Source of the DNA: a virus
Virus record (IMG/VR): IMGVR_UViG_3300003937_000144
Location: 30,020-94,019 of that record
DNA length: 64,000 nucleotides
Direction: 5' to 3' (one strand)
A model generated the notes under the pieces. It was not told where the DNA came from. It ran no database searches and saw only the letters and a program-made list of their open reading frames with translations. Made by a program: the position numbers and the translations under genes. Every line of letters starts with the position of its first letter. Position 1 is the stretch's first letter. This document shows positions 33,244-59,090 of the stretch, piece by piece.

Positions 33244-33258
33244 TAAGTAAAATTCTAA

Positions 33259-33297: not shown

Positions 33298-34731
33298 ATG
33301 AAAACAAGTGATACTTTTTGTGCCCTTCCATGGGTACACCTCTCAACAAGACCGAATGGACATATGCGGGTATGTTGTACAGCAAATGCTTCCGGCGTTC
33401 AGAACCCAGACTCTCAAGATAAGATAGAATCAGACATTGGCATTTTAAAGAATGATGATGGTATGCCTTCTAATCTTGCCAACACATCATTAGCTGATGC
33501 TTGGAATAATAACTATATGAGAGGAACACGTAAAGCAATGATGCGTGGTGAAAAGCCTGCAAGTTGTATTAAATGTTATAAAGAAGAAGATGCAGGACAT
33601 AGATCCAAGAGGATGTGGGAGACCGATAAATGGATTAAGAAACTTGGTATAGAGTCAGTATTAGAAGGATATGATCCAGAGACTGGTACAGTGCCACCAC
33701 AAATCCGATACGTGGATCTTCGCCTTGGGTCTAAGTGTCAGTTAGCTTGTGTTATGTGTTCACCTAATGATTCATCGGGTTGGATAGTAGAACATAAAAA
33801 GATACATCCTAAATTAAAGAACGATAATCTAGAAAAAACAATGCGTTGGGAGAAGGAGACAGGTAAATTAGCCTTTGTAGGTGGTAGTTATGCGTGGCAT
33901 AAAAAGAATCCAATGTTCTTTGATGAACTCTATGAACAGATACCTAAGCTAAAACAATTATATTGGGCAGGTGGTGAACCACTTGTTATGAAAGAACATT
34001 ACTTTTTATTGCAACAAATCATTGATGATGGTTATGCAAGTGAGATTGAAGTGAGATATAACTCAAACGGAATGGAGTGGGAGCCTGAGCTCTTTGACTT
34101 ATGGAAGCATTTTAAGGAAGTTATATTTCATTTCTCTATTGATGACATGGAAGATAGGTTACATTATATAAGATATCCTGCAACATTCGACCATCTCACT
34201 ATGAAAATGAGGGAGTTAGATAATTATCCTCATGGAAACCTTAGGCTAACTACTGCTTATACTATACAGCTACTTAATATATGGTCTATACCAGATTTTG
34301 TTAGGTGGAAATTAACAAACAAATGGAAACTATTAAATCAATGGCCGCAAGGTGGAGGTATGATTGATAATCATTTGGCATATTGGCCGCCCCAATTAAA
34401 TTGTAAAGCATTGCCATTAGACTTTAAAAAGAAAGTAACTGAAAAGTATGAGGCTTTCTATCCATGGTTAGAAGAGAACTGGGAATTATCTGGCGCACCT
34501 AGCAAAGAATTATTCATGGAAAACAATTATACAATAAACCGTCTTAAAGGGATTGCATCATTTATGAATGCAGAAGATTGGTCAGTACGATTGCCTGAAA
34601 CTGCTGAATGGTGTTATAGAGTTGCAGAAGAAAGAAGTCTAGACTTTGATAAGATCTTTCCAGAGTTATCTTGGTTACAAGATTATCATACGCCCCACGA
34701 AGATTTTCCGTTAGTAATTAATACTTCTTAA
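33298..34731 (+). CDS. Radical-SAM protein with N-terminal Cys-rich twitch-like domain, copy 1
   Basis: At 477 residues this is the longest member of a six-gene family. The N-terminal domain has C8 in FCALPWVHL, a C26-C27 pair and C90-x2-C93, the pattern of a twitch/SPASM-type auxiliary cluster placed before the catalytic domain. The core follows: C147-QLA-C151-VM-C154 binds the catalytic 4Fe-4S cluster and GGEP (225-228) contacts SAM. Radical-SAM enzymes form a 5'-deoxyadenosyl radical; no substrate can be read from sequence. It has its own late promoter just after the fibre terminator and leads the enzyme island. Its 3' end overlaps the PP-loop gene on the other strand by 14 bases. Confidence 0.85.
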   Translation: MKTSDTFCALPWVHLSTRPNGHMRVCCTANASGVQNPDSQDKIESDIGILKNDDGMPSNLANTSLADAWNNNYMRGTRKAMMRGEKPASCIKCYKEEDAGHRSKRMWETDKWIKKLGIESVLEGYDPETGTVPPQIRYVDLRLGSKCQLACVMCSPNDSSGWIVEHKKIHPKLKNDNLEKTMRWEKETGKLAFVGGSYAWHKKNPMFFDELYEQIPKLKQLYWAGGEPLVMKEHYFLLQQIIDDGYASEIEVRYNSNGMEWEPELFDLWKHFKEVIFHFSIDDMEDRLHYIRYPATFDHLTMKMRELDNYPHGNLRLTTAYTIQLLNIWSIPDFVRWKLTNKWKLLNQWPQGGGMIDNHLAYWPPQLNCKALPLDFKKKVTEKYEAFYPWLEENWELSGAPSKELFMENNYTINRLKGIASFMNAEDWSVRLPETAEWCYRVAEERSLDFDKIFPELSWLQDYHTPHEDFPLVINTS

Positions 34732-35398
34732 AAGCCCAGAATTTCTCTTTACACCACCAACATTTCTTACATGGCTTTGTAAACTTCTTTGTCTTATCAG
34801 CTTGGCCTTCACAAGATCTTGTTAAAGGAAATAAACCTTTCATTAAACCTTCGCTTTCAAAGCATCTAGCTATAAATTGTTTATCATGATTAGCAAATGG
34901 CTTTGAGTTATGTTTTCTATGTGTACCATCTCTGTATTTTGGTCTTTCATCGGTATACATATTATGCTCTTGCATAACAGGTCTTGCTGGGTTCTTTGTA
35001 ACAAATCCAATATTTTCTTTTAGCTTATACTTAGTTTTATTGTTATCATATACCTTTTGCCATTCTTCATCAAGAATTCTTAAACCAACTTTAGGTGGAG
35101 TAGGTACAACAATATGTTGAAACTTCTGGGTCTTAGTTAACTTCAATTCTTTTTCAACCCAAGCCATAATCTTTTTAGCGTGTGTAACATTCCAATCTTT
35201 AGCCGCTTGCTTCTGATAACCTGGATTATCGTTTTGGTCTCTCTTCCAAGTAGCAATAACAATCTTATTCTTAAGTTTATTCTCTTTAATATGTTTGGCT
35301 ATAACATATAAACCTAAAGCTGAATCAAGTCCACCGCTCACCCATAATAGTATGTTGCCAGTCTTTGGTAAATCTATTTGAACGTTCTTATAAATCAT
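34718..35398 (-). CDS. PP-loop ATPase with QueC-like zinc site, copy 1
   Basis: This protein has 226 residues. S21-GGLD-S26 is the PP-loop signature of N-type ATP pyrophosphatases, which activate a substrate by adenylation. The C-terminus holds C196...P-C210-KK-C213-WW-C216, laid out like the zinc site of QueC (7-cyano-7-deazaguanine synthase) and related enzymes. The sequence outside these sites is not QueC-like enough for me to claim preQ0 synthesis. It is the only minus-strand gene within the island, driven by its own late promoter at 35430-35437, which overlaps the start codon of the next radical-SAM gene. A paralogue is at 42600. Confidence 0.75.
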   Translation of the reverse strand: MIYKNVQIDLPKTGNILLWVSGGLDSALGLYVIAKHIKENKLKNKIVIATWKRDQNDNPGYQKQAAKDWNVTHAKKIMAWVEKELKLTKTQKFQHIVVPTPPKVGLRILDEEWQKVYDNNKTKYKLKENIGFVTKNPARPVMQEHNMYTDERPKYRDGTHRKHNSKPFANHDKQFIARCFESEGLMKGLFPLTRSCEGQADKTKKFTKPCKKCWWCKEKFWAFKKY

Positions 35399-35405
35399 AT
35401 AAATA
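35398..35405 (+). promoter_or_regulatory. T4-type late promoter TATAAATA (plus), overlapping the start of the minus gene
   Basis: Perfect box whose first base is the first base of the start codon (minus strand) of the PP-loop gene. It is 31 bases upstream of the plus-strand ATG at 35437. Confidence 0.8.
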
Positions 35406-35429
35406 ATAATAAATTGATTAACATAACTT

Positions 35430-35437
35430 TATTTATA
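35430..35437 (-). promoter_or_regulatory. T4-type late promoter TATAAATA (minus), overlapping the start of the plus gene
   Basis: Perfect box on the minus strand, 31 bases upstream of the PP-loop ATG at 35398. Its first base is the A of the plus-strand ATG at 35437. The arrangement mirrors the box at 35398-35405 exactly. Confidence 0.8.
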
Positions 35438-36780
35438 TGAAAAAAAATACCTTCTGTCCACTTCCTTGGAATTCTATTAACCTAAGAAATAACGGCGATA
35501 TGCGGATCTGCTGTAATACAAACTCGTATTCACCGCAACGTGGTATAATGAAGACTGAAGATGGTGAGACTTATAACGCTGGTAAGCATGACTTTAATGA
35601 AGCACGTAATGCACAGATATTAAAAGATGTTCGTGCAGATATGCTTAAGGGTGAATGGAATCCTGAGTGTGAACGTTGTAGACAAGAAGAGATAAACGGT
35701 ATACCGTCTCGTCGTCAATATGAGAATAATGATTGGGAAATAAAATTAGATACAGCTATTCCAATGACTCAGGAAGATGGAACTCTTGATGTAGATAAAC
35801 AACTAATAGAATTTATTGATATACGTTATGGTAATTTCTGTAATCTTAAATGCAGAATGTGTGGGCCAACTGATTCTCATATGTGGTACCCAGACTTTAT
35901 TAAACTTACAGACGGTAAGGTAACATCATATAAAGATACGCATACTCGTATACAACTTGAACAAACATCGACTGGCAAATGGACTACTGACCAATATGAT
36001 TGGTTTAAAGATGCTCCTATTTACTGGGACAACTTTGAAAAGTATGCGCATGATGCAAAGAAACTTTATATTGTTGGTGGTGAACCTTTAATTATTGCTG
36101 AACATGAGAAGAGTTTACAGTTATTAGTTGATGGTGGTAAAGCACATAACATAGAGATAGAGTATAATTCTAATCTAACAAATGTAACAAACAAATACAT
36201 AGAGCTATGGTCACAGTTTAAACAGATTCGTGTCGGTGCATCTGTTGATGGATTTGGTAAAGTATTTAATTATCAGCGTACGCCAGCTAAATGGGAATCT
36301 GTATATGAGCATATGAAAAAGCTAAATGATAATCGTGAAGTAAATCTAAAATGTTGGTTTACATTTACTGTTACACCTTATAATGTATATCATATGCCTG
36401 AGTTTATGAAATGGAAATTAGAAGAGAGTGAGTTAGATAGATATAATCCTATCGATGGTATGAGACCAACCATAACTCAACACATGTGTCACTCCCCTAA
36501 GTACTATAATATTAAAGTATTACCGCAACATCTTAAAGATGACATTGAAGATCATTATGAATTATACAAATCATGGGTTGACGGTAGTAATTATTCAGAT
36601 AAAGTTAAAGCACATTTCCATGAGGTATGTGATAGCACAATAAGATTTATGCAGTCCGAGTCTTATGAAAAAGATCACCTACAAGGATTCATAGATATAA
36701 CAAATAAATTAGATAAGATACGAGGTCAAGATGTAAGGGAAATTGTTCCTGAATATATCGAAATGTTCGATGCGCACTAA
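35437..36780 (+). CDS. Radical-SAM protein with N-terminal twitch-like domain, copy 2
   Basis: The protein has 447 residues. C7 lies in FCPLPW, followed by C25-C26 and C78-x2-C81, which make up the N-terminal Cys domain. C135-NLK-C139-RM-C142 is the SAM-cluster motif and GGEP lies at 214-217. It is close in layout to copy 1 (the PLPW or ALPW and MR-x-CC stretches are the same type). It starts 31 bases after a divergent late promoter and overlaps the next member by 11 bases, so the copies are co-translated. Six divergent paralogues in one phage suggest either several steps on one substrate or several substrates. Confidence 0.85.
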   Translation: MKKNTFCPLPWNSINLRNNGDMRICCNTNSYSPQRGIMKTEDGETYNAGKHDFNEARNAQILKDVRADMLKGEWNPECERCRQEEINGIPSRRQYENNDWEIKLDTAIPMTQEDGTLDVDKQLIEFIDIRYGNFCNLKCRMCGPTDSHMWYPDFIKLTDGKVTSYKDTHTRIQLEQTSTGKWTTDQYDWFKDAPIYWDNFEKYAHDAKKLYIVGGEPLIIAEHEKSLQLLVDGGKAHNIEIEYNSNLTNVTNKYIELWSQFKQIRVGASVDGFGKVFNYQRTPAKWESVYEHMKKLNDNREVNLKCWFTFTVTPYNVYHMPEFMKWKLEESELDRYNPIDGMRPTITQHMCHSPKYYNIKVLPQHLKDDIEDHYELYKSWVDGSNYSDKVKAHFHEVCDSTIRFMQSESYEKDHLQGFIDITNKLDKIRGQDVREIVPEYIEMFDAH

Positions 36781-37957
36781 ACCATATTGTAAGGCTCCAT
36801 GGGTTGGATTATCTTATGTAGGAACTGAAGGTTGCAAGCCATGTTGTGAATGGAAAGGTGGCCAGTTCTTTGGCACTCATAAAGAATATATTGAATCAGA
36901 TTACTTAAAAGAATTTAAGGAAATGATGTACAATGATGATATGAATGAGGCATGTATAGAATGTATTCATAATGAAAAGATTCAAAAACTAGGCGGGTCG
37001 AGAAGACAGCGGTTCATGAAATATGATATTGATGGTGGATTAGTAAGGTTAGATTTTAGGGCTGGAAATAAATGTAATATGAAATGTAGAATGTGTGGTT
37101 CACATTCATCATCTCTTTGGGAAGACGAAGATAATAAGTGGGGATCAAATGTATATTTAGATCCACCTCATGTTATTCCAAGATTAGATACATCAGATGT
37201 ATATAATATCGATTTCACATCTTTGCAGAAAGTTATGATTCTAGGCGGTGAGCCTTCAGTTGATTTAGAAGTAAGAAAGTTTATAGATCATATTAAACAT
37301 CTAGATTGTTTTGTTGGTATAACTACTAATTGTTCCAACGCATCTGAGAAATGGTTTCGTTCATTAGAAACTATTAAAAAATTAGAGCTTGATTTGTCAA
37401 TAGATGGCTGTGGTCCTGTAGCAGAATATCAAAGGCATGGTGTTACTTGGGATAAGATCAAAACTAATCTATGGAAATATAAAGCATTATTTAATGGAGA
37501 TAAAGGTGCTGTTCAAATAGATGATATTATGTATCACAATTCACTTACGAGGTGGAAAGATGCAAATGGCACATGGGGTGATGCTCATATAAACTTTGCA
37601 GTAACTGCAATTAACTTTCCTATATTAGATACATGGTGGGATGAGTTAATGGATTTTGAAATACAAACATTTTTTAGTGTAGTTCATTTGCCATTGTCAC
37701 ATAGCATAAATGCAATACCAAAAGAATATTTAGATTATCAAATAGCTTGGTTAAAGAAATGGATTGATGACGGTAAAGCAAATAATATTAACCGTAAACA
37801 AGCTGCTGAGATGGCTATAAGTGTAATGGAAAATTCAAAGTATGATCTGTTTTGTCATGAACAATTTGTAAAGATAACAAAAGAATTGGATAAGCGAAGG
37901 GATGAAAATATATATGATTTAGATGAAAGGTTTGAGGATATAATGAATGAAAGATAA
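36770..37957 (+). CDS. Radical-SAM protein with N-terminal twitch-like domain, copy 3
   Basis: Starting at the ATG at 36770 (MRTKPYCKAPWVGL) this protein has 395 residues; an upstream TTG would add nine unrelated residues and is not used. N-terminal Cys are C7, C22, C25-C26 and C62-x2-C65, one more than in copies 1 and 2. C102-NMK-C106-RM-C109 and GGEP (159-162) form the catalytic core. ELDLSIDGCGPVAEYQRHG near residue 204 is the family's conserved S-x-D-G segment. It overlaps both neighbours by about 11 bases. Confidence 0.85.
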   Translation: MRTKPYCKAPWVGLSYVGTEGCKPCCEWKGGQFFGTHKEYIESDYLKEFKEMMYNDDMNEACIECIHNEKIQKLGGSRRQRFMKYDIDGGLVRLDFRAGNKCNMKCRMCGSHSSSLWEDEDNKWGSNVYLDPPHVIPRLDTSDVYNIDFTSLQKVMILGGEPSVDLEVRKFIDHIKHLDCFVGITTNCSNASEKWFRSLETIKKLELDLSIDGCGPVAEYQRHGVTWDKIKTNLWKYKALFNGDKGAVQIDDIMYHNSLTRWKDANGTWGDAHINFAVTAINFPILDTWWDELMDFEIQTFFSVVHLPLSHSINAIPKEYLDYQIAWLKKWIDDGKANNINRKQAAEMAISVMENSKYDLFCHEQFVKITKELDKRRDENIYDLDERFEDIMNER

Positions 37958-39149
37958 TGGTGTAATATGCATGTTGCCTTGGGTTCATACCACCGTGAGT
38001 ATGAAAAATACTTTGAGGCCTTGCTGTAGATTTAGAGTGGGTAGAGAAGATGAAGGTATAACCGCTGACTCTGAATCAGATATTAAAGATAAATTTAGAT
38101 GGTTACGTACAGAAATGTTAGCAGGCAGACCTGTAGAGAAGTGTTCATTGTGTTATCAACAAGGTGACAAGTCTATGAAGTGGACAGCTAATAAAGAATT
38201 TGATTTAGAAAATGCAGAGCTTACAGAAGATTTTGATAAGCTAAGGTCAGTAGAATTATCCCTAGATAACCTATGCAATCTTCAATGCAAGATGTGTGAT
38301 TCATTATTCTCAAGTAAGTTATATGATAGGGACAAGTATCTAATAGAGGTACATAATCTTAAAGGTAGAAACCCAACAAAGATACCTAAACAAAGAATTG
38401 AATTCCTCAAGGGCCTTGATATAGATTGGCATGCATTAGAACATATTAAAATTCTTGGTGGTGAACCATTCTTCTCACCTAATTTCCCTAAGCTAATTGA
38501 TTTTCTATTAGAACATTCTGAAGTAAAGAATGTCACATTAGAGATTGTAAGCAACTGTACAAATAGATTAGATCAAGATATGATTGATAAGTTAAATCAA
38601 TTTGGGTTTATAATACTTACATGTTCTCTTGATGGCTGTAATGAATTTAATACATATCAAAGATGGGGTTCACCTGGATGGGAGGAGACATTAGATACCT
38701 ATAAGTGGTATCATACAGTGTTAAACAATATGGTTAAAAAACATATACATTCCACATATACTATTCTTAATTTGTCTGGTCTTGCAAATGATATGAAATA
38801 CTGGGAAAATAATCACCCTGACTGGTCAGTGTCATTTAACTTTGTTACTACAGGTGAATACTCTCCATACATTGTTCCGACATGGTATAGAGATTGGATA
38901 TTAGAACAATGGGGAGATAAAGACAACGAGAGAATAACTTTAGCTCGTAAGATGTTACGAGAAAATCAGATTAAATATAAACCATGGAAGACATGGGGAT
39001 TAGCTATGTTAAAGCTTCATGCCATTGACGGCTATTATGATTCTGAATTAGGTGACTATTGTCCTGATCTAGAAATGTTATTATTAAAACACGATAAGAC
39101 ATATCAACATAATCAATACTATGAAACAATAGAGGACTTTGATGTTTGA
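37947..39149 (+). CDS. Radical-SAM protein with N-terminal twitch-like domain, copy 4
   Basis: The protein has 400 residues. The Cys domain comprises C8 (ICMLPWVHTTV), C26-C27 and C66-x2-C69. The catalytic motif is C110-NLQ-C114-KM-C117, with GGEP at 171-174. ILTCSLDGCNEFNTYQRWG fits the shared SxDG/YQR segment near the end of the barrel. It lies in an unbroken run of overlapping genes. There is no C-terminal SPASM domain, so the only extra cluster candidate is N-terminal. Confidence 0.85.
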   Translation: MKDNGVICMLPWVHTTVSMKNTLRPCCRFRVGREDEGITADSESDIKDKFRWLRTEMLAGRPVEKCSLCYQQGDKSMKWTANKEFDLENAELTEDFDKLRSVELSLDNLCNLQCKMCDSLFSSKLYDRDKYLIEVHNLKGRNPTKIPKQRIEFLKGLDIDWHALEHIKILGGEPFFSPNFPKLIDFLLEHSEVKNVTLEIVSNCTNRLDQDMIDKLNQFGFIILTCSLDGCNEFNTYQRWGSPGWEETLDTYKWYHTVLNNMVKKHIHSTYTILNLSGLANDMKYWENNHPDWSVSFNFVTTGEYSPYIVPTWYRDWILEQWGDKDNERITLARKMLRENQIKYKPWKTWGLAMLKLHAIDGYYDSELGDYCPDLEMLLLKHDKTYQHNQYYETIEDFDV

Positions 39150-40248
39150 ATTAGAAACATGCTTAGCTCCACAAGCATCCGTTACAGTAAGTCAAAAAGG
39201 TTATATAGCTCCATGTTGCCAGTTTAATCTTTGGCCGGAAGATGAATGGTTTAGTATATATGATTTAGATTCATTACATGAAGCACATGGTACAGATCGG
39301 TGGAACAAATATGATTCAGAGCTATCTAAATATGATGGCAGTAATAAATGTCGTACATGTATTCGTGAAGAAGAATCAGGGGCACATTCTTTAAGACAGA
39401 CTTGGAATGAAAAGATAAAAAAAGAAGATAAGCATATAGAACATTTAGAAATCTCATTAGACTTTACATGTAATATGATGTGTAGATCTTGTGGACCAAG
39501 TCAAAGTTCTAAATGGAATGGCAGTTCAATACTAGAAGAATTGCAAATGTTAAATATGCCAGATAATGAAGGTGCATATACTGCAATTAAAAACCCTAGA
39601 AATTATCAAGATAATATCAAACGTGTTCTTAGTAATACAGATCTATCGCACTTAAAAGAAGTAACATTAGTAGGTGGTGAACCATTATATTCTAAAAGCT
39701 TACCTTGGTTTCTTAGTTTATTGCATGAAGATGTTCGGCTTATAGTTGTTACTAACGGAAGTTTATTACCATCCGATGAGATGTTTTCTAAATTTAAATA
39801 TGTTAAATTCCAAGTATCTATTGATGCTATTGGAGATTTAGGAACTGCAATGAGAATGAAAGTTCCATTTGAAACCATTGATAAAAACATTAGACAGATG
39901 ATAAAGAAATATCATATTGGTGTCCACACAACCATTTCTGTACAGAATATAAATAGACTATACGAGCTTGATAAATATTGTGTAAATTTAGGACAGGAGA
40001 AGGTACAACATAGCGTTGCATTGCTGCACGATCCTTCATATATGAGAATAGATATCATACCTCTTGAAATTAGAATGAAGTGGTTAACTGATAATAAGGA
40101 AATAAATCCGTATTTAAATATGCCATATAGAGAATCAATAAGTGATGTGCAACACTTTTTAGAAAATATGGAAATAATGGATGATGAATCATCAATTAAA
40201 TTTAAAGATGCTAACCCAGAAATAATGGATATACTAAATGAAATGTAG
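39142..40248 (+). CDS. Radical-SAM protein with N-terminal twitch-like domain, copy 5
   Basis: I use the ATG at 39142 (MFELETCLAPQ), giving 368 residues; the TTG three bases upstream only adds one residue. Cys positions are C7, C25-C26 and C70-x2-C73 for the N-terminal domain and C110-NMM-C114-RS-C117 for the SAM cluster, with GGEP at 178-181. The usual PW after the first Cys is PQ here. KFQVSIDAIGDLG replaces the SxDG segment. It overlaps copy 4 by 8 bases and copy 6 by 11. Confidence 0.85.
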   Translation: MFELETCLAPQASVTVSQKGYIAPCCQFNLWPEDEWFSIYDLDSLHEAHGTDRWNKYDSELSKYDGSNKCRTCIREEESGAHSLRQTWNEKIKKEDKHIEHLEISLDFTCNMMCRSCGPSQSSKWNGSSILEELQMLNMPDNEGAYTAIKNPRNYQDNIKRVLSNTDLSHLKEVTLVGGEPLYSKSLPWFLSLLHEDVRLIVVTNGSLLPSDEMFSKFKYVKFQVSIDAIGDLGTAMRMKVPFETIDKNIRQMIKKYHIGVHTTISVQNINRLYELDKYCVNLGQEKVQHSVALLHDPSYMRIDIIPLEIRMKWLTDNKEINPYLNMPYRESISDVQHFLENMEIMDDESSIKFKDANPEIMDILNEM

Positions 40249-49362: not shown

Positions 49363-49997
49363 AATTATTTTTGTGGGCAACCTTTTTAGGATTCTTATGG
49401 TGTCAGGTAGTTACACACTATGCTGTCTCTGTAGGACTACATAGGTACTTTGCTCATAACCAATTTAAAACAAGCTTATTTCATGAGGTTGGCTTCATAA
49501 TAGGAATTATGATTGCATGTGTTCGTACACCTATTGGTTGGGTGGCAAGTCACAGAATGCACCATGCAGATACAGAGGGACCATTAGATCCTCACGATGC
49601 TAAACAAATAGGTTATTGGAAAGTGGCAACTACCACTTGGGATTTGAAACATGTGCCTATTAAATTTGCAAAGGATCTATATGATAACCCAAGACTTGTA
49701 TGGGCTCATGAGAATTGGGATACATTCTTATGGTATTACTGGGCTGCATGTATGTTAATCTCACCTTATTTCTGGTGGGCTGCAGCATTTATGCCTTATG
49801 TATTTGCTAAGGTTGGATTTGGTATGTTAAATATATTTGGACATTGGAATGGACCAACTGATGGTGTTTGGATGAATTGGATTTTGGGTGGTGATGGATA
49901 TCACAAAGTACATCATGAACATCCATATAGATTAAAACTTGGTAAGTATGATTTAGGTGGTTATTTAGCGGAGAGATTTTGGAAAAAGAAACTTTAA
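49353..49997 (+). CDS. Membrane fatty-acid desaturase
   Basis: The three histidine boxes of acyl-CoA/acyl-lipid desaturases are all present: H30-RYFA-H35, H67-RM-H70-H71 and H184-KV-H187-H188, with a further NIFGHWNG near residue 160. These hold the di-iron centre that puts a double bond into an acyl chain. Hydrophobic segments (residues 5-28, 45-60, 127-155) fit a membrane enzyme, though with 214 residues it is shorter than most bacterial relatives (about 300). Phage-encoded desaturases are known from marine T4-like phages. It would change host membrane fluidity or supply an acyl group for the island's product. Confidence 0.85.
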   Translation: MDLELFLWATFLGFLWCQVVTHYAVSVGLHRYFAHNQFKTSLFHEVGFIIGIMIACVRTPIGWVASHRMHHADTEGPLDPHDAKQIGYWKVATTTWDLKHVPIKFAKDLYDNPRLVWAHENWDTFLWYYWAACMLISPYFWWAAAFMPYVFAKVGFGMLNIFGHWNGPTDGVWMNWILGGDGYHKVHHEHPYRLKLGKYDLGGYLAERFWKKKL

Positions 49998-51729: not shown

Positions 51730-51732
51730 ATA
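51725..51732 (+). promoter_or_regulatory. T4-type late promoter TATAAATA
   Basis: A perfect box that includes the stop codon of the upstream oxygenase gene and lies five bases before the ATG at 51738. It gives the second half of the island its own promoter. Confidence 0.85.
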
Positions 51733-51737
51733 TAACT

Positions 51738-52373
51738 ATGGAAGCAAGAACAAAATATAAATTACCGACACATGGTGAATTAAAGCATATCGATATAGAT
51801 CTTGATAAGCTTCAAGCAGCAACAGATAAATTAGCTGCCGAATATGTCGATGTCAAGACCGCTAATAAAATGTTATGTGATAATCATATGGCATTGAGTA
51901 AATCTGTATACGATAACTTTATGCAAATAAACTTAACTGAATTTGGTGGTGATAAAGAATTAAAATATACAGATAGTATAAAAGAGCGTCTTCGTAGAGG
52001 TGAAGAAAAATTATATAATAAGCCTAACGACAAATATATAGGAAGTTACTTTGAAGAAATAACTAGCCAATTTAAATGTGATAAGATGAGAGTTCGTATC
52101 ACTAAACTTGATCCTGGTACTGATGTACCTATGCATATTGACTATGACCCTACCTATGCAACTAGAGTTGTCATACCAGTATACACAAACCCTAAAGTTA
52201 AAAATAGATTTAAGGTTAGAGGTGAAGAAGTTGAAACACATTTAGAAGCAGGCAAAGCATATTTCTTTAATACCGGTTTTGCTCATGGAGTATTTAATGA
52301 GAGTGATGAACCACGTATAGCCTTTATGTTTAGCTTAGATGGACAAGATGATATAACTGATATAAAATTATAA
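51738..52373 (+). CDS. Aspartyl/asparaginyl beta-hydroxylase-like oxygenase
   Basis: The 211-residue protein has the cupin-type core of the Asp/Asn hydroxylase family: H133-I-D135 in VPMHIDYDPTYATRVVIPVY, then HLEAGKAYFFNTGFAHGVFN with H183 and R193 in EPRIAFMFSL. All three iron ligands and the 2OG Arg are present, so it should be active. The N-terminal 110 residues are helical and may bind the substrate. Known members hydroxylate protein side chains or free amino acids. It starts a transcription unit (late promoter five bases upstream) and is followed by another oxygenase after one base. Confidence 0.8.
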   Translation: MEARTKYKLPTHGELKHIDIDLDKLQAATDKLAAEYVDVKTANKMLCDNHMALSKSVYDNFMQINLTEFGGDKELKYTDSIKERLRRGEEKLYNKPNDKYIGSYFEEITSQFKCDKMRVRITKLDPGTDVPMHIDYDPTYATRVVIPVYTNPKVKNRFKVRGEEVETHLEAGKAYFFNTGFAHGVFNESDEPRIAFMFSLDGQDDITDIKL

Positions 52374-52374
52374 T

Positions 52375-53022
52375 ATGAATTTAGATATTGAGCACTACGT
52401 CTATAAGGCGAAATGGATTGACGACTCTATTTGTGATGAAGCCATTAAAGTACTTAATGAGGAAAACACCTGGCTACCATTCCCTAAAGATGTAATCAAT
52501 GCATATCCCGATGCTCCAAGAGCACAAGACGGTATTAAAGGATCTACACTCAGTATTGATTGGGCACAATTCTTAGGTGATCCTAGTATACCTGAACAAG
52601 ATAGAAATTATGGTTTAGCCCATTTAAAAAATCAAGATGTATTAAATAAAGTTAGATCTTGTATGAAGGCAGGATTAGATAATTATATTCACGAATATAT
52701 GAAGGACATAGAGTGGTATGATTACTATACAGACTTTACTGATCCTAAATTTATGAAGTATACTGAAAGTAATGACATGATGGAACATTGCGATCATGTA
52801 AGATATATATTTGATGGTAAAAAGAAAGGCATTCCTACAGTTTCTATTGTAGGTAATTTAGGTGATGACTTTGAAGGTGGTGCAATAAGATTTTGGGATA
52901 AGACAGATTACTATATGAAAAAAGGTGAGCTAATGTTTTTTCCTAGTAATTTTTTGTATCCTCATAGGGTTAGAACAACAACTAAAGGTTTAAGATATTC
53001 TCTTGTGAGTTGGGTATGGTAA
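52375..53022 (+). CDS. Prolyl-4-hydroxylase-type 2OG oxygenase
   Basis: This protein of 215 residues has H138-C-D140 (MMEHCDHVRYIF), GGAIRFWDK and the closing FPSNFLYPHRVRTTTKGLRY with H197 and R207, the canonical iron and 2OG ligands of the P4H family. Members hydroxylate proline or other residues in proteins, or free substrates. It lies between the Asp hydroxylase-like gene (one-base gap) and the TauD-like cluster, whose first ATG overlaps its end by 7 bases. Confidence 0.8.
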   Translation: MNLDIEHYVYKAKWIDDSICDEAIKVLNEENTWLPFPKDVINAYPDAPRAQDGIKGSTLSIDWAQFLGDPSIPEQDRNYGLAHLKNQDVLNKVRSCMKAGLDNYIHEYMKDIEWYDYYTDFTDPKFMKYTESNDMMEHCDHVRYIFDGKKKGIPTVSIVGNLGDDFEGGAIRFWDKTDYYMKKGELMFFPSNFLYPHRVRTTTKGLRYSLVSWVW

Positions 53023-53834
53023 ATATATTAGATTATACTGACAAGCAGTTTAAAGAATTAGCAAAGAAAATTATTCAAGATGGTTCAGTAGTACTCCATG
53101 ACCAAAACCTAACACGAGAACAACACGTTGAAGCATGTGCACGTTTTGGTGAACTCGAGAAACAAAGTTATTGGATGAATCCTAAAGACACCCCTGAAAT
53201 TAGTATTGTATCTGGTCAAGTTGACAAAGAGGGTAATGCTATTGGTATGTTCAGAGATCAGGAATTAGAGTGGCATGTTAATGGTGCAGGTAGACATAAG
53301 TTAACAGAATATTGTGTATCATTATATTGTGTAGAGGAATGTGTAGATACTGTATTATCAATATGTAATTGGACTGATATGTTTGCTGATCTATCCGAAG
53401 AACAAAAAGATTATTATAGAAGCATTGATGTTCATTTAGATGGAGCAGGTGTAAGCTTATGGCCCAATAGTAATTATAGAGGTAGAGAGGGTGAGTTTAA
53501 TGTAAGCAATGAATATTATAAAGAAGTTATTCAAGATGATGATAGACGACCACTTGTTGGTAAGCACCCAATAGATGGTAGAGAATATCTATATTTTCTA
53601 ATTCAATATTTAAAAGAAGCATATATAGGTGATAAGCAATTAGACATCGATGAATTTTATGCTGACCTATGGCCGAAAGTATTTAGGTCGAAGTATATGT
53701 TTCATCATGTATTCAGGAGAGGTGACCTACTCTTTATGGACCAATTACACACAATACATAGGAGATCGCCGATACACTTTATGGACAGAATGTTATGGAG
53801 GACAGCGTTTGACTACTCAAATATTAAATTTTAG
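53016..53834 (+). CDS. TauD-like 2OG oxygenase with HxN site, copy 2
   Basis: From the ATG at 53016 the protein has 272 residues. LDYTDKQFKELAKKIIQDGS begins the TauD-type fold. H87-V-N89 in LEWHVNGAGRHK is the altered first iron motif, RRPLVGKHPIDGREYLYF the middle segment, and LLFMDQLHTIHRRSP (H245 or H248, R249/R250) the distal motif. It is the first of three tandem paralogues with the same order. The last codons double as the ribosome-binding site and start of the next copy. Whether it binds iron without the Asp, as halogenase-type relatives do with other residues, is unknown. Confidence 0.75.
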   Translation: MVNILDYTDKQFKELAKKIIQDGSVVLHDQNLTREQHVEACARFGELEKQSYWMNPKDTPEISIVSGQVDKEGNAIGMFRDQELEWHVNGAGRHKLTEYCVSLYCVEECVDTVLSICNWTDMFADLSEEQKDYYRSIDVHLDGAGVSLWPNSNYRGREGEFNVSNEYYKEVIQDDDRRPLVGKHPIDGREYLYFLIQYLKEAYIGDKQLDIDEFYADLWPKVFRSKYMFHHVFRRGDLLFMDQLHTIHRRSPIHFMDRMLWRTAFDYSNIKF

Positions 53835-54639
53835 TGATGAACAATTAAAAGACTTAGCTGAAGAACTTATTGCAAAGGGCCATGTTATACTTTACGATCA
53901 GGTTATGACCATGGACCAATATGTTGAAGTGTGTAATCGCATAGGTAATTGTGAGTATTATAATTACTTTATGAATCCACCTGAAAGGCCAGAGATTAGT
54001 TTTGTGTCAGGTGAGAGAGATGAGAACGGTAAAGTCTTAGGTGTCTTTGGTGATAGCGAATTACAGTGGCATGCAAATGGTGTAGCTCGTCATAAGTTTG
54101 ACCAAATAATTGTATCATTATATTGTGTAGAGGAATGTATAGACACAGTGCTTTCTATATGTAATCAATGTGATGCGTTTGCTGAATTATCTGAAAGAGA
54201 TAAGGAAAGATTTAGAAAGATTGATATACAGCTTGATGATAAAAAAGATGCTATATATAAAATGTCTGACCATGATTTACCTGATCATCCAGCAAGAGAA
54301 CGTGAAATTAAAACTGGCGCTGAATTTTATAAAGAAGATGTAGATAGACGGCCTTTAGTAGGTAAGCATCCGATAGATGGTAGAGAATATTTATATTTTA
54401 TGGTACCATATATAGTTGGTGCATTTGAGAATGGAGAACGAATTAATCATGAAGCTTTATATGAAGAACTATGGGAAAAGTTATTTAATTCAAGAAATAT
54501 GAAACATCATGTATTTAGGAAAGGCGATTTATTGCTTATGGACCAGTTACATACAACTCATAGGAGATCGCCCGTTAAAAGAAAAATAAGAAAATTATGG
54601 AGGTGTGCATTTGACTATTCAAATATCGACTTTACCTAG
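53809..54639 (+). CDS. TauD-like 2OG oxygenase with HxN site, copy 3
   Basis: The frame is open from 53650, but the sequence before 53809 is only the neighbouring gene in another frame. I choose the TTG at 53809: GGAGG (53797-53801) lies seven bases upstream, and the protein then starts LTTQILNFSDEQLKDLAEEL, which aligns with the start of copies 2 and 4. It has 276 residues, H88-A-N90 in LQWHANGVARHK, RRPLVGKHPIDGREYLYF and LLLMDQLHTTHRRSP. The pattern of a TTG start nested in the upstream copy repeats at the next gene. Confidence 0.75.
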   Translation: MTTQILNFSDEQLKDLAEELIAKGHVILYDQVMTMDQYVEVCNRIGNCEYYNYFMNPPERPEISFVSGERDENGKVLGVFGDSELQWHANGVARHKFDQIIVSLYCVEECIDTVLSICNQCDAFAELSERDKERFRKIDIQLDDKKDAIYKMSDHDLPDHPAREREIKTGAEFYKEDVDRRPLVGKHPIDGREYLYFMVPYIVGAFENGERINHEALYEELWEKLFNSRNMKHHVFRKGDLLLMDQLHTTHRRSPVKRKIRKLWRCAFDYSNIDFT

Positions 54640-55402
54640 AGATAGACTTAAGTGGGAACTAACTAAAACCCAAATAGCAGGTCATAGTATATGGTATGAC
54701 CAAGGATTAGATGCTAATGGTTTAACAGAATTCATGAATTCAATTGGTGAATGTGAATGCCCTGACCTATTCATGAACCCTAAGAATACACCTGAGATCT
54801 TTATAGTCACTGGTAAGAAGGATAAGCATGGTAAGAAGCTTGGCATGTTTGGTGATACTGAACTTGGTTGGCACTCTAATGGTAACTCAAGACACAACGT
54901 TGATAAAATATTAATTGCTTTATATTGCGTTGAAGAAGATGATAATACTTGTTTGTCTATATGTAATACAACTCGACCATTCCAGGCTTTAACAGATGAA
55001 CAACAAGAATACTATAGAGATATTACAATTAAACTCAAATTTAAAAATAATACTATATATAATTTAGAAGAAGGTGATCCAGAATTAGAATTCATGGAAG
55101 CTAGCAAAGGATCTATACGTAAATTAATAGGTAGGCATCCACATACTGGCCAAGAGTATTTCTATTTTCCATATCATTTTATAGAGAGAGTTTGGTATAA
55201 GAAAAAGAAAATTGACGGTAATAAACTTATACAAGAGTTGAAGCAGGTTATATTTAAATCACAATACCAAACACATCACATATTTAAAAAGGGCGATCTA
55301 TTATTAATGGATCAATTTACTTCGTTACATAGGAGGACTCCAGTGTATGACAATAATAGATTACTATGGAGAGTTGCCTGTGACTATAGGAAGATAATGT
55401 GA
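54611..55402 (+). CDS. TauD-like 2OG oxygenase with HxN site, copy 4
   Basis: I choose the TTG at 54611 (LTIQISTLPRDRL), with GGAGG at 54599-54603 seven bases upstream, exactly as in copy 3; a GTG at 54605 is possible too. The protein has 263 residues with H88-S-N90 in LGWHSNGNSRHN, GRHPHTGQEYFYFPYHF and LLLMDQFTSLHRRTP. It is the most divergent of the tandem set. The GTG start of the flavin reductase overlaps its stop codon. Confidence 0.75.
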   Translation: MTIQISTLPRDRLKWELTKTQIAGHSIWYDQGLDANGLTEFMNSIGECECPDLFMNPKNTPEIFIVTGKKDKHGKKLGMFGDTELGWHSNGNSRHNVDKILIALYCVEEDDNTCLSICNTTRPFQALTDEQQEYYRDITIKLKFKNNTIYNLEEGDPELEFMEASKGSIRKLIGRHPHTGQEYFYFPYHFIERVWYKKKKIDGNKLIQELKQVIFKSQYQTHHIFKKGDLLLMDQFTSLHRRTPVYDNNRLLWRVACDYRKIM

Positions 55403-56064
55403 AAAAAATAGTTGCTGTAGCATTTAGTTATGCAGAAAATTCTATGAACATGAGAGGCTTAACCCTCATGGATGAATTGTTATTTTTTGATGGCCAATAT
55501 GATATGAATGATTTTAATATGCCTCTTTGTAATTCAAATAAATCAGATGGAAATGTTCCAGAAGGTGTGAATAAATTCATAAAGGTTATGAGAGATGCTG
55601 ACATATTAGTGTTTGCTATACCTGAAGCTACAGGACATTATGCGGCTGCGTTCAAGAATGCAATGGATTGGTTAATATGTGAGTCTAAGTTTAATAGTGA
55701 TATTGCAGTTGATGGTGCATTTTATAATAAACCAGTATGGGTTGTAACATTCACTCCTGTGATTCCCGCGGTAACTCCGGGTGAAAGTTATGAGATAGGT
55801 GCTGGAGGCCGACACTTTGAAATGACAAGACACCTATTAAATGAGAAGATGGGTGGAGCTGTGCATCAAGAGATGTTTGTGTTTAATGATGGATGGCAAC
55901 ATTGCAGACCAGGAAATGTTGATTGGGTAAGAGATGCTTGTAATGAAATACTAAGAGCAATAGATTTTGATCCTGGTGAAAGGGCACCATCATATTCTAT
56001 GAAGGATAGACCAGTAAAGTGGCTTAAACGATACGAAGAGTGGGATGCTTCATGGAAGGAATAG
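55399..56064 (+). CDS. NAD(P)H-dependent FMN reductase-like flavoprotein
   Basis: This protein of 221 residues follows the flavodoxin-like FMN reductase plan. The first strand is KKIVAVAFSYAENSMNMRGL, then MRDADILVFAIPEATGHYAA and AFKNAMDWLICESK, the analogue of the P-E-Y-N-G ... LKNAIDW motif. FTPVIPAVTPGESYEIGAGG follows strand four. It could supply electrons or reduced flavin to radical-SAM or oxygenase partners. The start is GTG at 55399, overlapping the stop of the previous gene by four bases. Confidence 0.75.
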   Translation: MKKIVAVAFSYAENSMNMRGLTLMDELLFFDGQYDMNDFNMPLCNSNKSDGNVPEGVNKFIKVMRDADILVFAIPEATGHYAAAFKNAMDWLICESKFNSDIAVDGAFYNKPVWVVTFTPVIPAVTPGESYEIGAGGRHFEMTRHLLNEKMGGAVHQEMFVFNDGWQHCRPGNVDWVRDACNEILRAIDFDPGERAPSYSMKDRPVKWLKRYEEWDASWKE

Positions 56065-56630
56065 CCGAATACATTAATGTCGATTATAATAAAGAGTATC
56101 TAATACGAAAGCATAACGATGCGCGCGGTGCACATGGTAAAGAGTATATCGAATGTGGAACCGAATCTCACATCCTTAGAGATAACCCAGACTATTACAG
56201 ACAATGGGATCATATACTTACAATCATGTGTGGTGTTCATATAGGTATGTGCGAACATGGTACAGGTTTTAATTTAAATGGAACTCTAAAAGCCGGGGTA
56301 CCGCCCCATATAGATTTTGATGATAGAGAAGGTAATGGATTTAATTTATTATTACCTATGTTTGGTATAGCTAAGATTAATATATACGAAACCATACCTA
56401 GTCAATTAGAATTTAGACATGGCATGACCCATTGGAATATGTTACAAGATAAATATCCACCAAGAAAGATAGGTGAAATAGTTGTAGATAAGCCTGTCTT
56501 ATTAGATACAATGTACTTACATGATGTACAAGTAATCGATGCGCCTCGTGCAATATTTTGTGTTGCTTGGAGAGGTATAAATAAGACATATAATGAATTT
56601 AAAGACCATGCCGAAAAAACACTTACCTGA
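56052..56630 (+). CDS. Cupin-type Fe/2OG oxygenase-like protein
   Basis: From the ATG at 56052 the protein has 192 residues. H86-I-D88 in VPPHIDFDDREGNGFNLLLP and H157 with R166 in MYLHDVQVIDAPRAIFCVAW give a complete HxD...H...R set on a cupin-like core. The fold resembles the Asp/Asn hydroxylase group. The upstream GTG at 56040 would add four residues. It overlaps the flavin reductase by 13 bases and the methyltransferase by 38 bases. Confidence 0.65.
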   Translation: MEGIAEYINVDYNKEYLIRKHNDARGAHGKEYIECGTESHILRDNPDYYRQWDHILTIMCGVHIGMCEHGTGFNLNGTLKAGVPPHIDFDDREGNGFNLLLPMFGIAKINIYETIPSQLEFRHGMTHWNMLQDKYPPRKIGEIVVDKPVLLDTMYLHDVQVIDAPRAIFCVAWRGINKTYNEFKDHAEKTLT

Positions 56631-58032
56631 TCCAGAAAAGTATGAGCTAGGCGAGCCATATACCCATCTAGGAATACCATTCCCAAGGTTACCTGCTACC
56701 TTTGAAAAGAATTCAGTTCCATTAAAAGAAGATTACAAAATGAGATCTATGGATTACTTAGATACTCCTGAAGCTTATTCGTTATTTGAAAAGCAAGCTG
56801 ACCTTATAATTGAAAATGGTTGGAAGGGTATTATTGATGTTGGTTGTAGACATGGTCCAGTAGTTGATATATTAATGGATAAAGGATATACTGATTTCAA
56901 CTATATGGGATTTGATACATCTGCTCAACCTATTGAATATGCTCAAGAGACATGGCAAGAGTTTGATAATATAGAATATCGTGTTATGTCTTGGAATGAA
57001 TTTGCGCCAGCTGGTGCAAGCAAAGGTCATAAGCAGCTTGGTCAAAACAATAAGAAAGAAACTGATGAGGAATGGTGGTCTAGAGCCGGTGTTAAATTCA
57101 AAGTAGACTTCCATGTTGATGTTATGATATGGTCAGGCGTTTTATTATATGAACCAACATATCATTTATGGTTCTTTCATAATATGCATAATGCGTATGG
57201 TGCACAAAATGCAATTATACAAGAACCTTTAAAAGACCAAAGGCCAGAATGCTGGAGAGAAGATTTAGAATTAAATACTATTGAGCATAGACTTCATATG
57301 TATAAAACTAAATATTATGAATATGAATCTTGGGAATTTGATTTAGATATATTTAGTGGTAGAAGAATAATATCACGTGTTAAATTATGGCAGGATGGTG
57401 ATTCTAAATGGGAAGATTGGGTAGATACTCATGGTCAGCTAGCCGCTAATCCACACACTGAGATACTTCCATCAGGCTATAAAGTAATACCATATATATT
57501 TCGAGGTAAATTAAATTTTGAATTAAGCCAAAGGGATCAGACTTTATGTCAAGTAGCTTTAGAGAAAATGTTTAAAGAGAGACATAGTCATAGGTTAGCA
57601 GATAATTATAGCAGAGATAAATTGCATTTAGGCAAAATGTATATGTACAACTTTGTATTTGATGGTGATGAACCAGTCTTCTGCTCGGGTGTACAAAATG
57701 TTACTGATAAAGTTGTTAGAGTATTCTCTAGATACTTTGCTTTTGAAAAGTATAAGACAGATGGCACCACACTATTAGAGAAGAATGACAACTTTGAAGA
57801 ATTACAATATGCTATGCATTGGATCCGTGATAGAATTATATTTTGGAGTAGAGATAAATCTCCTAAGTTCTTTGAAAGGTTAAAAGTTAAAAATGAATTG
57901 TTTTCAGAGTGGACTGTACATCCTACAAAGATTAATATAATCTATCCTAATAATGAACAATATATATTTTATACACCAAAGGTTCCAGCTGAATGGTGGA
58001 AAAATGGTAACTATGATGGATTTTTTAAATGA
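56593..58032 (+). CDS. Two-domain methyltransferase-like protein
   Basis: This 479-residue protein has a class I SAM-binding motif near residue 80 (GIIDVGCRHGPVVDILMDKG, then YMGFDTSAQPIEYAQETW). VDVMIWSGVLLYEPTYHLWF fits motif IV of the catalytic domain. From about residue 300 a second part of unknown type follows (KMYMYNFVFDGDEPVFCSGV, ending with VPAEWWKNGNYDGFFK). An ATG at 56608 is an equally good start. It overlaps the next gene by four bases. The substrate is unknown. Confidence 0.65.
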   Translation: MNLKTMPKKHLPDPEKYELGEPYTHLGIPFPRLPATFEKNSVPLKEDYKMRSMDYLDTPEAYSLFEKQADLIIENGWKGIIDVGCRHGPVVDILMDKGYTDFNYMGFDTSAQPIEYAQETWQEFDNIEYRVMSWNEFAPAGASKGHKQLGQNNKKETDEEWWSRAGVKFKVDFHVDVMIWSGVLLYEPTYHLWFFHNMHNAYGAQNAIIQEPLKDQRPECWREDLELNTIEHRLHMYKTKYYEYESWEFDLDIFSGRRIISRVKLWQDGDSKWEDWVDTHGQLAANPHTEILPSGYKVIPYIFRGKLNFELSQRDQTLCQVALEKMFKERHSHRLADNYSRDKLHLGKMYMYNFVFDGDEPVFCSGVQNVTDKVVRVFSRYFAFEKYKTDGTTLLEKNDNFEELQYAMHWIRDRIIFWSRDKSPKFFERLKVKNELFSEWTVHPTKINIIYPNNEQYIFYTPKVPAEWWKNGNYDGFFK

Positions 58033-59090
58033 AGTTCTATGTTAACGGCACCCGTCGAGGGTTAGGCAAATATATCTATGATAGATTGAATGTAGTCGAG
58101 ACTCTTGAAGAATGTGATGTATTCATTAATTGTAAGCATGATGGATTCCTTCAGGTGGACTTATTATATAAAGCTTGTGAATTAGGCAAGAGAGTTATCA
58201 ACATAGGTTCATATGCATCTGACTGGATATTCCATCCACAACAAAAGAAATATACTTATGCTATTGAGAAGAAAGCATTAAGAGATGCTAACTCACAACT
58301 GTTTGATAATGGTTATAATACTACATGTTTAAACTTAGGTTATTTGGATAGTGAGAGTGTAGAACATATCACATCAAATAAGATGACACATAGATCTGTT
58401 GTAAATAATATTGAATGGATACTCACACATCCTCATCGTGTAAAAGAAATAACTATAACACCTAATGAATCAAAGAAAGAAAATAAGTACAATGACCAGG
58501 TCGTTAAAGAAATAGGAACTCTAGCATATGATGAACGTATAACAATATCAGATAACCTACGTGACTATTCAACCATGTATGCTAACTGTTATAAACAATT
58601 ACACCAGTTCGGTCAATATGATTTAGAAAAGGTTAGAGCTGAAGTAGCTGTGTTATTAGAGGCACATGAATTACATGATAATCAAATTATGTTACAATCA
58701 TTGGATGGTAAAGACTTCTATACTGGTATCACTCAAGTAAGTAAGATCCCTGAGGGTATAGTTGAGAATGATTTTGATAAGCTCAACGTTCATGAGGATT
58801 CAGAGATAGCTAGATTCATAAATGATTTAGGTATAACAAGGGCAAGATTACTTGTCTTACCTGAGAAAACTTGTTATACATTCCATTTTGATCCGACTTC
58901 ACGAATACATTTAGTGGTAAAAACAAATGAATGGGCCTTTATGGCTGATGAAAAGTGGAGATTATTCCATATGCCTGATGATGGTTATCCATGGTATGTT
59001 GACACTACATATCCACACACCGCAATTAACTCAGCACTTGAAGACCGCATACATATAATGGGTCGTGCACCGCAAAAACCTTATAAATAG
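58029..59090 (+). CDS. Fusion of SDR-like domain and Asp/Asn hydroxylase-like domain
   Basis: Residues 1-150 look like a short-chain dehydrogenase: YVNGTRRGLGKYIYDRL is the TGxxxGxG nucleotide loop in altered form, CDVFINCKHDG fits the NAG region, and Y77-AIE-K81 is the YxxxK catalytic pair. Residues 200-353 carry H286-F-D288, H330 and R340 (CYTFHFDPTSRIHLVV, then TTYPHTAINSALEDRIHIMG), a complete hydroxylase set. One chain could thus oxidise and hydroxylate the same substrate. It ends at the late promoter of the lipoprotein gene (the TAG is partly in the box). Confidence 0.65.
   Translation: MKFYVNGTRRGLGKYIYDRLNVVETLEECDVFINCKHDGFLQVDLLYKACELGKRVINIGSYASDWIFHPQQKKYTYAIEKKALRDANSQLFDNGYNTTCLNLGYLDSESVEHITSNKMTHRSVVNNIEWILTHPHRVKEITITPNESKKENKYNDQVVKEIGTLAYDERITISDNLRDYSTMYANCYKQLHQFGQYDLEKVRAEVAVLLEAHELHDNQIMLQSLDGKDFYTGITQVSKIPEGIVENDFDKLNVHEDSEIARFINDLGITRARLLVLPEKTCYTFHFDPTSRIHLVVKTNEWAFMADEKWRLFHMPDDGYPWYVDTTYPHTAINSALEDRIHIMGRAPQKPYK
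59082..59089 (+). promoter_or_regulatory. T4-type late promoter TATAAATA
   Basis: A perfect box overlapping the last codons of the SDR-hydroxylase gene, exactly five bases before the ATG at 59095. Confidence 0.85.

Follow-up and report, generated by a model that had tools for sequence, protein, structure and literature searches.

A conserved array of radical-SAM enzymes and oxygenases behind the tail-fibre genes of a T4-like marine phage has counterparts in Bdellovibrionota chromosomes

What does a phage do with nine different radical-SAM (rSAM) enzymes and about 20 other modifying enzymes encoded directly behind its tail-fibre genes? These enzymes, of which the rSAMs catalyse reactions that are otherwise hard to reach, lie in a window of 64,000 nucleotides (positions 30,020 to 94,019 of IMG/VR record IMGVR_UViG_3300003937_000144), Table 1. 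The phage is marine, T4-like and a relative of the pelagimyophages. The best matches of its VrlC by tblastn are VrlC of the Pelagibacter phages Mosig and HTVC008M, at 35–36%. The island, a variable region after VrlC and the fibre genes, sits at the position of the pelagimyophage 'host recognition cluster', a known hypervariable region containing 'cassettes related to radical SAM proteins' and glycosyltransferases interpreted as O-chain modifiers (Zaragoza-Solas 2020, PMC7029224). The isolate HTVC008M differs: oxygenases occupy that position and a halogenase lies close by, with no rSAM annotated. No neck protein gp14 was seen on the other side of the island up to the contig end, which falls at cyclase-like and curlin-like genes; HTVC008M has the neck gene on that side.

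The multi-rSAM phenomenon itself is not new since T4-like marine phages with many rSAMs have been reported, TARA_ERS488813_N000010 and its relatives having 12 rSAMs, an A-type Fe-S carrier and a glutaredoxin (Nishimura 2017, PMC5332604). The present record is likewise T4-like with many rSAMs, an A-type carrier-like gene (L009:19145) and a glutaredoxin-like gene (L010:532). In its passages on these phages, that paper deals with Fe-S supply only and gives no core trio, link to bacterial arrays or pathway.

Table 1. Features of the window.
Feature	Position	Strand	Remarks
VrlC baseplate protein	13754..18862	+	left border of host-recognition-cluster position
Small outlying block: 2OG-oxygenase-like gene, GxGG protein, GT-A-like gene	25405..28044	+	retained in related contigs
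Two repeat-rich tail-fibre-like genes	28414..33243	+	sequence repeats; located after VrlC
Intrinsic terminator separating island from fibre gene	33257..33276	+	8-bp stem with T run
T4-type late promoter motif TATAAATA ahead of rS1	33285..33292	+	
rS1, core N_Twi_rSAM (N-terminal twitch + radical SAM)	33298..34731	+	NF033640 380 bits
PP1, QueC-like PP-loop protein	34718..35398	-	weak QueC match; SGGLDS; C-terminal CKKCWWC
Back-to-back late promoter motifs TATAAATA for PP1/rS2	35398..35437		35398-35405 (+), 35430-35437 (-)
rS2, N_Twi_rSAM	35437..36780	+	NF033640 364 bits; dN/dS 0.08-0.13
rS3, N_Twi_rSAM, variable	36770..37957	+	NF033640 172 bits, barely above cut-off 170
rS4, N_Twi_rSAM, variable	37947..39149	+	NF033640 187 bits
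rS5, N_Twi_rSAM	39142..40248	+	NF033640 180 bits
rS6, N_Twi_rSAM	40238..41431	+	NF033640 227 bits; twitch domain with single Cys replacing CC
rS7, radical SAM, SPASM-like C-terminal cysteines	41422..42600	+	Pfam E 6.8e-6, SPASM weak
PP2, second PP-loop protein	42594..43499	+	ATP_bind_3 E 1.3e-4; CHWCWWC
rS8, core radical SAM, SPASM-like C-terminal cysteines	43499..44548	+	Pfam E 1.5e-12
GxGG protein 1	44539..45207	+	no Pfam match; no homolog in G005/G006
GxGG protein 2, start uncertain	45198..46004	+	no Pfam match
rS9, core radical SAM	45979..47109	+	Pfam E 2.6e-15
Small conserved array protein, 73-aa family	47097..47450	+	N-terminus longer here
Predicted GT-A glycosyltransferase (GT8/GT24-like)	47365..48174	+	AlphaFold pLDDT 82
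Conserved 147-aa protein accompanying the glycosyltransferase	48161..48604	+	20 loci
MT2, methyltransferase-like, core partner	48595..49362	+	57 viral loci, 8/15 chromosomal loci
Fatty-acid desaturase-like	49353..49997	+	PF00487 E 1.2e-6, 28.9 bits vs 29.7 cut-off
PLP-fold enzyme	49979..50803	+	weak Aminotran_1_2 match
Oxygenase block: TauD 50782, AspH 51738, 2OG 52375, TauD 53010, TauD about 53818, TauD 54605	50782..55402	+	each Pfam above cut-off
NADPH-dependent FMN reductase	55399..56064	+	PF03358 E 3.2e-15
2OG-type protein, as read by eye	56040..56630	+	no Pfam match; G006 ortholog 76%
Class I methyltransferase fused to domain of no known kind	56593..58032	+	Methyltransf_23 E 5.7e-4, under its cut-off
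Protein with C-terminal AspH-type oxygenase domain	58029..59090	+	PF05118 22.1 bits vs 22.6 cut-off

All nine rSAM genes named in a preliminary description of the locus are present at the coordinates given there, with CxxxCxxC, and Pfam Radical_SAM or NCBIfam backs each of them. The motif occurs in 9 of the 61 ORFs of the window against 0.065 expected by chance. PF04055 is over its cut-off in seven, rS3 and rS7 being just under. Six exceed the curated cut-off of the NCBIfam family N_Twi_rSAM (NF033640, 170 bits) with 172–380 bits, while rS8 (61 bits) and rS9 (37 bits) are under it and rS7 is without a match among those listed. Thus three of the nine lie outside this family, whose name denotes a domain architecture and no reaction. 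The extra N-terminal cysteine pattern C..CC..CxxC, claimed for six proteins, was found in five of the six twitch domains, with rS6 as the exception. The C-terminal cysteines of rS7 are Cys 282, 304, 305, 376 and 380. In PDB sequence searches rS9 and rS1 matched only distant rSAM enzymes, and the labels obtained from PHROGs were all generic (rSAM, dioxygenase and methyltransferase).

The two PP-loop proteins, described previously as having a CxxCWWC site, have SGG(L/M)DS plus CKKCWWC or CHWCWWC. They resemble QueC (7-cyano-7-deazaguanine synthase) in joining a PP-loop to a C-terminal Cys triad but no protein of the window is over any QueC cut-off (PP1, 15.8 bits versus 22; PP2, no QueC match). 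PP1 homologs were found in 31 viral loci and also in chromosomal arrays. The predicted structure of 47365 has the proposed GT-A fold, with Foldseek matches to UGGT, LgtC and glycogenin (prob 1.00), and 27385 in the outlying block shares one alignment with it. The commonest partner family also has a GT-A-like predicted fold, but matches known glycosyltransferases weakly (TM about 0.4) and is not present in this genome fragment. PDB sequence searches with the PP2, glycosyltransferase and partner profiles gave no useful match.

The other assignments held to differing degrees. FMN_red is above its Pfam cut-off. Among the eight proposed Fe/2OG-type proteins, four TauD, one AspH and one 2OG_3 protein are above their Pfam cut-offs, 56040 has no match, and 58029, thought to be an SDR-hydroxylase fusion, has an AspH domain just below the cut-off and an 'SDR' half without a clear Pfam match. 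The desaturase match is present just under the cut-off. The Pfam match of the PLP-fold enzyme is weak, though other members of its family in viral arrays and Bdellovibrionota weakly match PLP decarboxylases. Less certain are the two GxGG proteins, neither with a clear Pfam match, and the methyltransferase-like proteins, where 48161 and 48595 have no clear Pfam match and 56593 has a match below the cut-off.

It had been supposed that nearly all genes overlap and hence are co-expressed late. Overlaps were found at 25 of 28 junctions (where the second GxGG gene and third TauD gene start is uncertain), but PP1, lying between the first two rSAM genes, is on the opposite strand, and a single operon is thus excluded. 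The T4 late-promoter motif TATAAATA occurs 27 times in the window versus 12.8 expected and is placed closely upstream of rS1, the divergent PP1/rS2 pair, 51738 and 56593, and the fibre gene is cut off from the island by the terminator. These signals give indirect support to late expression of the island.

The preliminary description had also proposed one linked multi-step pathway, a proposal that single, unlinked genes in related phages would contradict. The opposite was found. Gene order is preserved in five related contigs, and the rSAM core recurs with the PP-loop, PLP, AspH, TauD, desaturase and methyltransferase set in both unrelated phages and bacterial chromosomes, and in the latter the clustering of AspH and TauD genes is significant (below). 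Sharing of the rSAM core extends further than that of the oxygenase half. Viral arrays also encode a NodU-type carbamoyltransferase, FkbM methyltransferase, UDP-glucose dehydrogenase and cytidylyltransferase.

Within the island rS1, rS8 and rS9 form a slowly evolving core while the other rSAMs vary between phages, a division that is new here. The rSAMs evolve under purifying selection, with dN/dS of 0.06–0.13 for rS1, rS2, rS8 and rS9 (rS1, 0.06–0.08) versus 0.12–0.39 for rS3, rS4, rS6 and rS7. In the relatives G004–G006, rS3 has 46–49% identity and rS5 has no ortholog, only paralogous matches of 23–25%. Recent tandem duplication as the origin of the array was rejected, also a new result, because for 516 of 527 rSAMs the nearest relative lies in a different contig.

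A further new result is the occurrence of the core trio in Bdellovibrionota chromosomes together with homologs of the PP-loop, PLP, methyltransferase, glycosyltransferase, AspH, TauD and desaturase proteins. Identity to Bdellovibrionota homologs is 43–50% for rS1 and 56–65% for rS9, the best conserved of all between phages and bacteria, and an rS8-type homolog occurs in 14 of 15 chromosomal loci, mostly at 34–44%. Homologs of rS9 are present in 17 of 291 genomes, normally in single copy, and rS9 itself had no match among 50,697 isolate phage records. Of the Bdellovibrionota AspH genes, 10 of 19 (0.7 expected, p about 5e-10) were no more than 10 kb from an N_Twi rSAM, as were 6 of 16 TauD genes (0.6 expected, p about 2e-5). 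Up to about 14 N_Twi rSAMs lie within 30 kb. Unlike the island, these arrays are more dispersed, use both strands and are without the small phage protein of 47097–47450, whose family is missing from bacterial loci except two phage-like contigs. Some loci have a UDP-sugar epimerase, CapD-type Polysacc_synt_2, an acyltransferase-SGNH protein and GT2 enzymes as neighbours. The bacterial copies are not explained by contamination of MAGs, a possibility that was rejected: contigs reach 1.6 Mb with no phage structural genes nearby, and phage and chromosomal rS9 homologs fall on either side of a single branch (support 100/99). Literature on rSAM in Bdellovibrio held nothing on point at title and abstract level. 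The clustering of the same enzyme kinds in Bdellovibrio-type chromosomes argues for one pathway common to phage and bacteria.

We tentatively favour, with a probability of about 0.4, a pathway of several oxidative tailoring steps that is expressed late and acts on a surface glycan or glycolipid. The core rSAMs would act with a PP-loop ATPase, the PLP enzyme, a methyltransferase-like protein and glycosyltransferases. The varying further rSAMs and Fe/2OG oxygenases would then alter C-H bonds of one common scaffold in different ways, by oxidation, epimerisation, cross-link or methyl steps. That scaffold would most likely be a glycan or glycolipid on the surface of the infected cell, and its remodelling would fall late in the infection; the probable benefit would be superinfection exclusion. 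For this count the kept gene order, the recurrence of the trio, the AspH/TauD clustering, the dN/dS split, the GT-A folds, the sugar-type chromosomal neighbours, the sugar genes of viral arrays, the lack of a trio-linked peptide and the position in a host recognition cluster with O-chain-type glycosyltransferases (PMC7029224). Against it, no complete sugar-nucleotide pathway lies within the window, clear polysaccharide genes adjoin only some chromosomal loci, the partner family, weak in its glycosyltransferase match, is missing here, and no rSAM of the island is near any characterised sugar-acting rSAM enzyme. Peptides and small molecules are also substrates of AspH and TauD enzymes.

A diffusible small molecule, nucleoside- or peptide-like and acting on the host or rival phages or serving as an anti-defence agent, is a possible though doubtful product. 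The mixture of rSAM, PLP, PP-loop, TauD, carbamoyltransferase, halogenase and phosphorylase is natural-product-like, the rSAMs are ancient and non-duplicate, and rS9 is weakly similar to viperin-type enzymes, far below the cut-off. However, no transporter, carrier protein, NRPS/PKS or precursor peptide family was found among the scanned phage array proteins, no precursor-like family adjoins the chromosomal trio, and the array is often linked to GT-type genes. A RiPP-like system acting on the protein of 47097–47450 or another short ORF is extremely improbable. That family accompanies the array in 29 loci, including all four close relatives tested, and twitch/SPASM rSAMs often mature peptides, but it is conserved over its full length with no leader/core pattern and does not accompany bacterial arrays. 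No RRE, peptidase or exporter was found among the scanned viral array proteins, and no conserved small ORF or peptide near the trio in 15 chromosomal loci.

Modification of the virion itself, for example of residues or glycans on the adjoining fibres, is unlikely. The island lies directly behind the fibre genes with late-type promoters, and proteins are common substrates of the rSAM/SPASM and AspH families. Of the product candidates proposed earlier, surface glycolipid is nevertheless preferred. Fibre modification is weakened because the same core, with glycosyltransferase and oxygenase homologs, exists in Bdellovibrionota chromosomes without fibre or other phage structural genes; moreover a terminator intervenes, and the fibre-like genes are only 61–65% identical to those of relative G005 whereas core rSAMs remain 89–93% identical. 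A loose store of functionally unrelated auxiliary genes at a recombination hot spot would fit the known hypervariability of the cluster (PMC7029224) and the narrower sharing of the oxygenase half, but is very unlikely given the same combination in the distant phage contig L092 and, strongly clustered, in bacterial chromosomes.

Returning to the glycan reading, phages and Bdellovibrio-type predators, both attackers of Gram-negative cells, might even share one dedicated rSAM/oxygenase machinery building a new class of extensively tailored envelope glycan for use on the attacked cell, though this extension is quite improbable. Such a glycan could, for instance, shut out rivals, and the changing rSAM set would give a lineage-specific structure. 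The arrays comprise several hundred uncharacterised rSAMs evolving as a kit. A fixed trio with a variable set, found also in Bdellovibrionota, recasts 'many Fe-S genes in marine phages' as a pathway that can be tested, and the bacterial carriers offer deletable clusters and a product to search for.

All nine radical-SAM (rSAM) genes claimed in the preliminary description, here rS1 to rS9, are present in this virus record of 94,019 bases, of which the window spans 30020-94019. The window has 61 non-overlapping ORFs that are 100 residues or longer; exactly these nine contain the motif CxxxCxxC, against 0.065 expected from residue shuffling. Six of the nine exceeded the cut-off of N_Twi_rSAM (NCBIfam NF033640, an N-terminal twitch domain). 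The accessory enzymes described around them were mostly supported by Pfam or motifs, and the GT-A assignment of 47365 held, its predicted structure matching UGGT, LgtC and glycogenin. No Pfam match was obtained for the GxGG pair, 48161 or 56040 and no methyltransferase match for 48595, and the SDR half of 58029 was without support. That the FMN reductase might supply electrons to the rSAM enzymes is conjecture.

Features of the island, its surroundings and related loci (window positions, or positions in labelled stretches, L; L009 and L010 belong to this record)
Feature	Position	Remark
rS1	33298	core
rS2	35437
rS3	36770
rS4	37947
rS5	39142
rS6	40238
rS7	41422	SPASM-like C-terminal cysteines
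rS8	43499	core; SPASM-like C-terminal cysteines
rS9	45979	core; C-terminal cysteine set of its own type
Two PP-loop proteins		CxxCWWC; confirmed
Four TauD, one AspH, one 2OG_3 oxygenase		confirmed
FMN reductase		confirmed
Desaturase-like protein		marginally below cut-off
Member of 73-residue family	47097-47450	in 29 loci with rSAM arrays; absent from bacterial arrays
VrlC	13754-18862	closest to Pelagibacter phages Mosig and HTVC008M, 35-36%
CHASE2-type adenylate cyclase-like gene, two curlin-repeat-like genes	61352-63930 (-)	past the island; curli-system genes are reported for pelagimyophages (PMC7029224)
NodU/CmcH-type carbamoyltransferase	L009:15661-17079	about 45 kb upstream of island start
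A-type Fe-S carrier-like gene	L009:19145	read from sequence
Glutaredoxin-like gene	L010:532	read from sequence
PaaD/DUF59-like gene	L082:2-271	near rSAM island; also at five further viral loci
Carbamoyltransferase homolog	L201:1875-3224	29%; adjoins Bdellovibrionota rSAM array

Searching with an rS1 profile gave relatives on 444 stretches of viral contig, and 80 of these were kept. Long rSAM arrays surround these relatives: of the 727 genes enclosed by the outermost rSAMs of each array, 463 are rSAMs, a fraction inflated by the choice of loci and borders. For 516 of 527 rSAM genes the nearest relative lies in a different contig, and median identity is 28% to the nearest array-mate versus 68% to the nearest relative elsewhere (<85%). 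Judged by sequence, the array rSAMs are old, distinct enzymes. The core trio rS1, rS8 and rS9 recurs most. In this lineage dN/dS is 0.06-0.13 for rS1, rS2, rS8 and rS9 and 0.12-0.39 for rS3, rS4, rS6 and rS7. Between the record and the related contig G005 the trio is 89-93% identical, similar to the best conserved replication genes, and the fibres are 61-65% identical.

In a genome scan, rS1 relatives came mainly from MAGs of Bdellovibrionota, a phylum known for predators, as a group rather than for these MAGs; every relative encountered lies on a metagenomic contig or in a MAG. rS9 was found in 17 of 291 Bdellovibrionota genomes, usually as a single copy, on contigs up to 1.6 Mb. Among 15 rS9 neighbourhoods, rS1-type and rS8-type genes are each nearby in 14, and a 48595 homolog and a member of a GT-A-like family each in eight; PLP and GT2 genes also occur, with QueC-like PP-loop genes in at least two. 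N_Twi rSAMs number 4 to 20 per rS9-carrying genome; of 192 Bdellovibrionota genomes 55 have them, versus 0 of 14 controls at equal threshold. A second one lies within 5 kb for 86 of the 150 listed (4.8 expected), and 10 of 19 AspH genes (0.73 expected) and 6 of 16 TauD genes (0.62 expected) lie within 10 kb of one, the p-values being rough given the 150 listed, rounded genome sizes and partly dependent neighbours. One locus, L206, parallels the latter half of the phage island: AspH, a desaturase, an N_Twi rSAM and two TauD genes sit together there. No phage structural genes were found at the Bdellovibrionota loci, and among the other phage genes tested only the carbamoyltransferase matches there. 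Phage and bacterial rS9 fall on opposite sides of one branch (100/99 support), which disfavours binning error and recent phage-bacteria swaps. Four MAG contigs labelled Acidimicrobiaceae, Chloroflexi, Neisseriaceae and Gammaproteobacteria (L112, L113, L121, L137) look like misbinned phage contigs of this group. The arrays are not restricted to Bdellovibrionota, since an Elusimicrobia contig (L145) holds six N_Twi-like rSAM genes in 13 kb.

Because the linkage holds across phages and bacteria, the island genes probably form one pathway or system (roughly three chances in four). Its product is tentatively seen as an envelope glycan or glycolipid. GT-A folds occur in the window and in the commonest partner family (the latter a weak match, TM about 0.4); some chromosomal loci are flanked by UDP-sugar epimerase, CapD-type, acyltransferase and GT2 genes, and other viral arrays hold carbamoyltransferase, FkbM methyltransferase, UDP-glucose dehydrogenase and cytidylyltransferase. 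These folds and sugar-type neighbours favour an envelope product, as does the failure to find a precursor peptide beside the chromosomal trio or, in the scanned proteins of the viral arrays, an exporter, and the same two negative results speak against a diffusible metabolite, which appears unlikely. Modification of the virion would be slightly less likely again. An envelope product would also fit a fixed core with changing finishing enzymes, which would suit a structure that, like surface structures, is selected for variation.

Gene order is kept in five related contigs; G002 and G003 are about 100% and 91-100% identical along the island, which leaves chiefly G004, G005 and G006 as independent comparisons. 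The window contains 27 copies of the T4-type late promoter motif TATAAATA versus 12.8 expected, and copies stand directly before rS1, the AspH gene 51738 and the methyltransferase fusion 56593. Two overlapping back-to-back motifs, on both strands (35398-35437), lie in the 38-base gap between rS2 and the divergent PP-loop gene at 34718. From this enrichment and placement the late co-expression proposed earlier is likely, but in several transcription units, since 34718-35398 is on the minus strand.

VrlC is followed by fibre-like genes, a terminator (33257), a T4-type late promoter motif (33285) and the island; in HTVC008M the corresponding position is taken by Fe/2OG oxygenases and by hypothetical genes that probably encode fibres. 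The record is a fragment, and genes missing from it may lie beyond its ends. rSAM-rich T4-like phages are already known, as a T4-like marine genome described in 2017 (PMC5332604) has 12 rSAM genes, an A-type carrier and a glutaredoxin. This record likewise combines an A-type carrier-like gene, a glutaredoxin-like gene and multiple rSAM genes, and the PaaD/DUF59-like genes near viral rSAM islands agree with the paaD noted in that paper. The NodU/CmcH-type carbamoyltransferase may belong to the rSAM system, because its family occurs in 9 viral rSAM loci and a homolog adjoins the array at L201.
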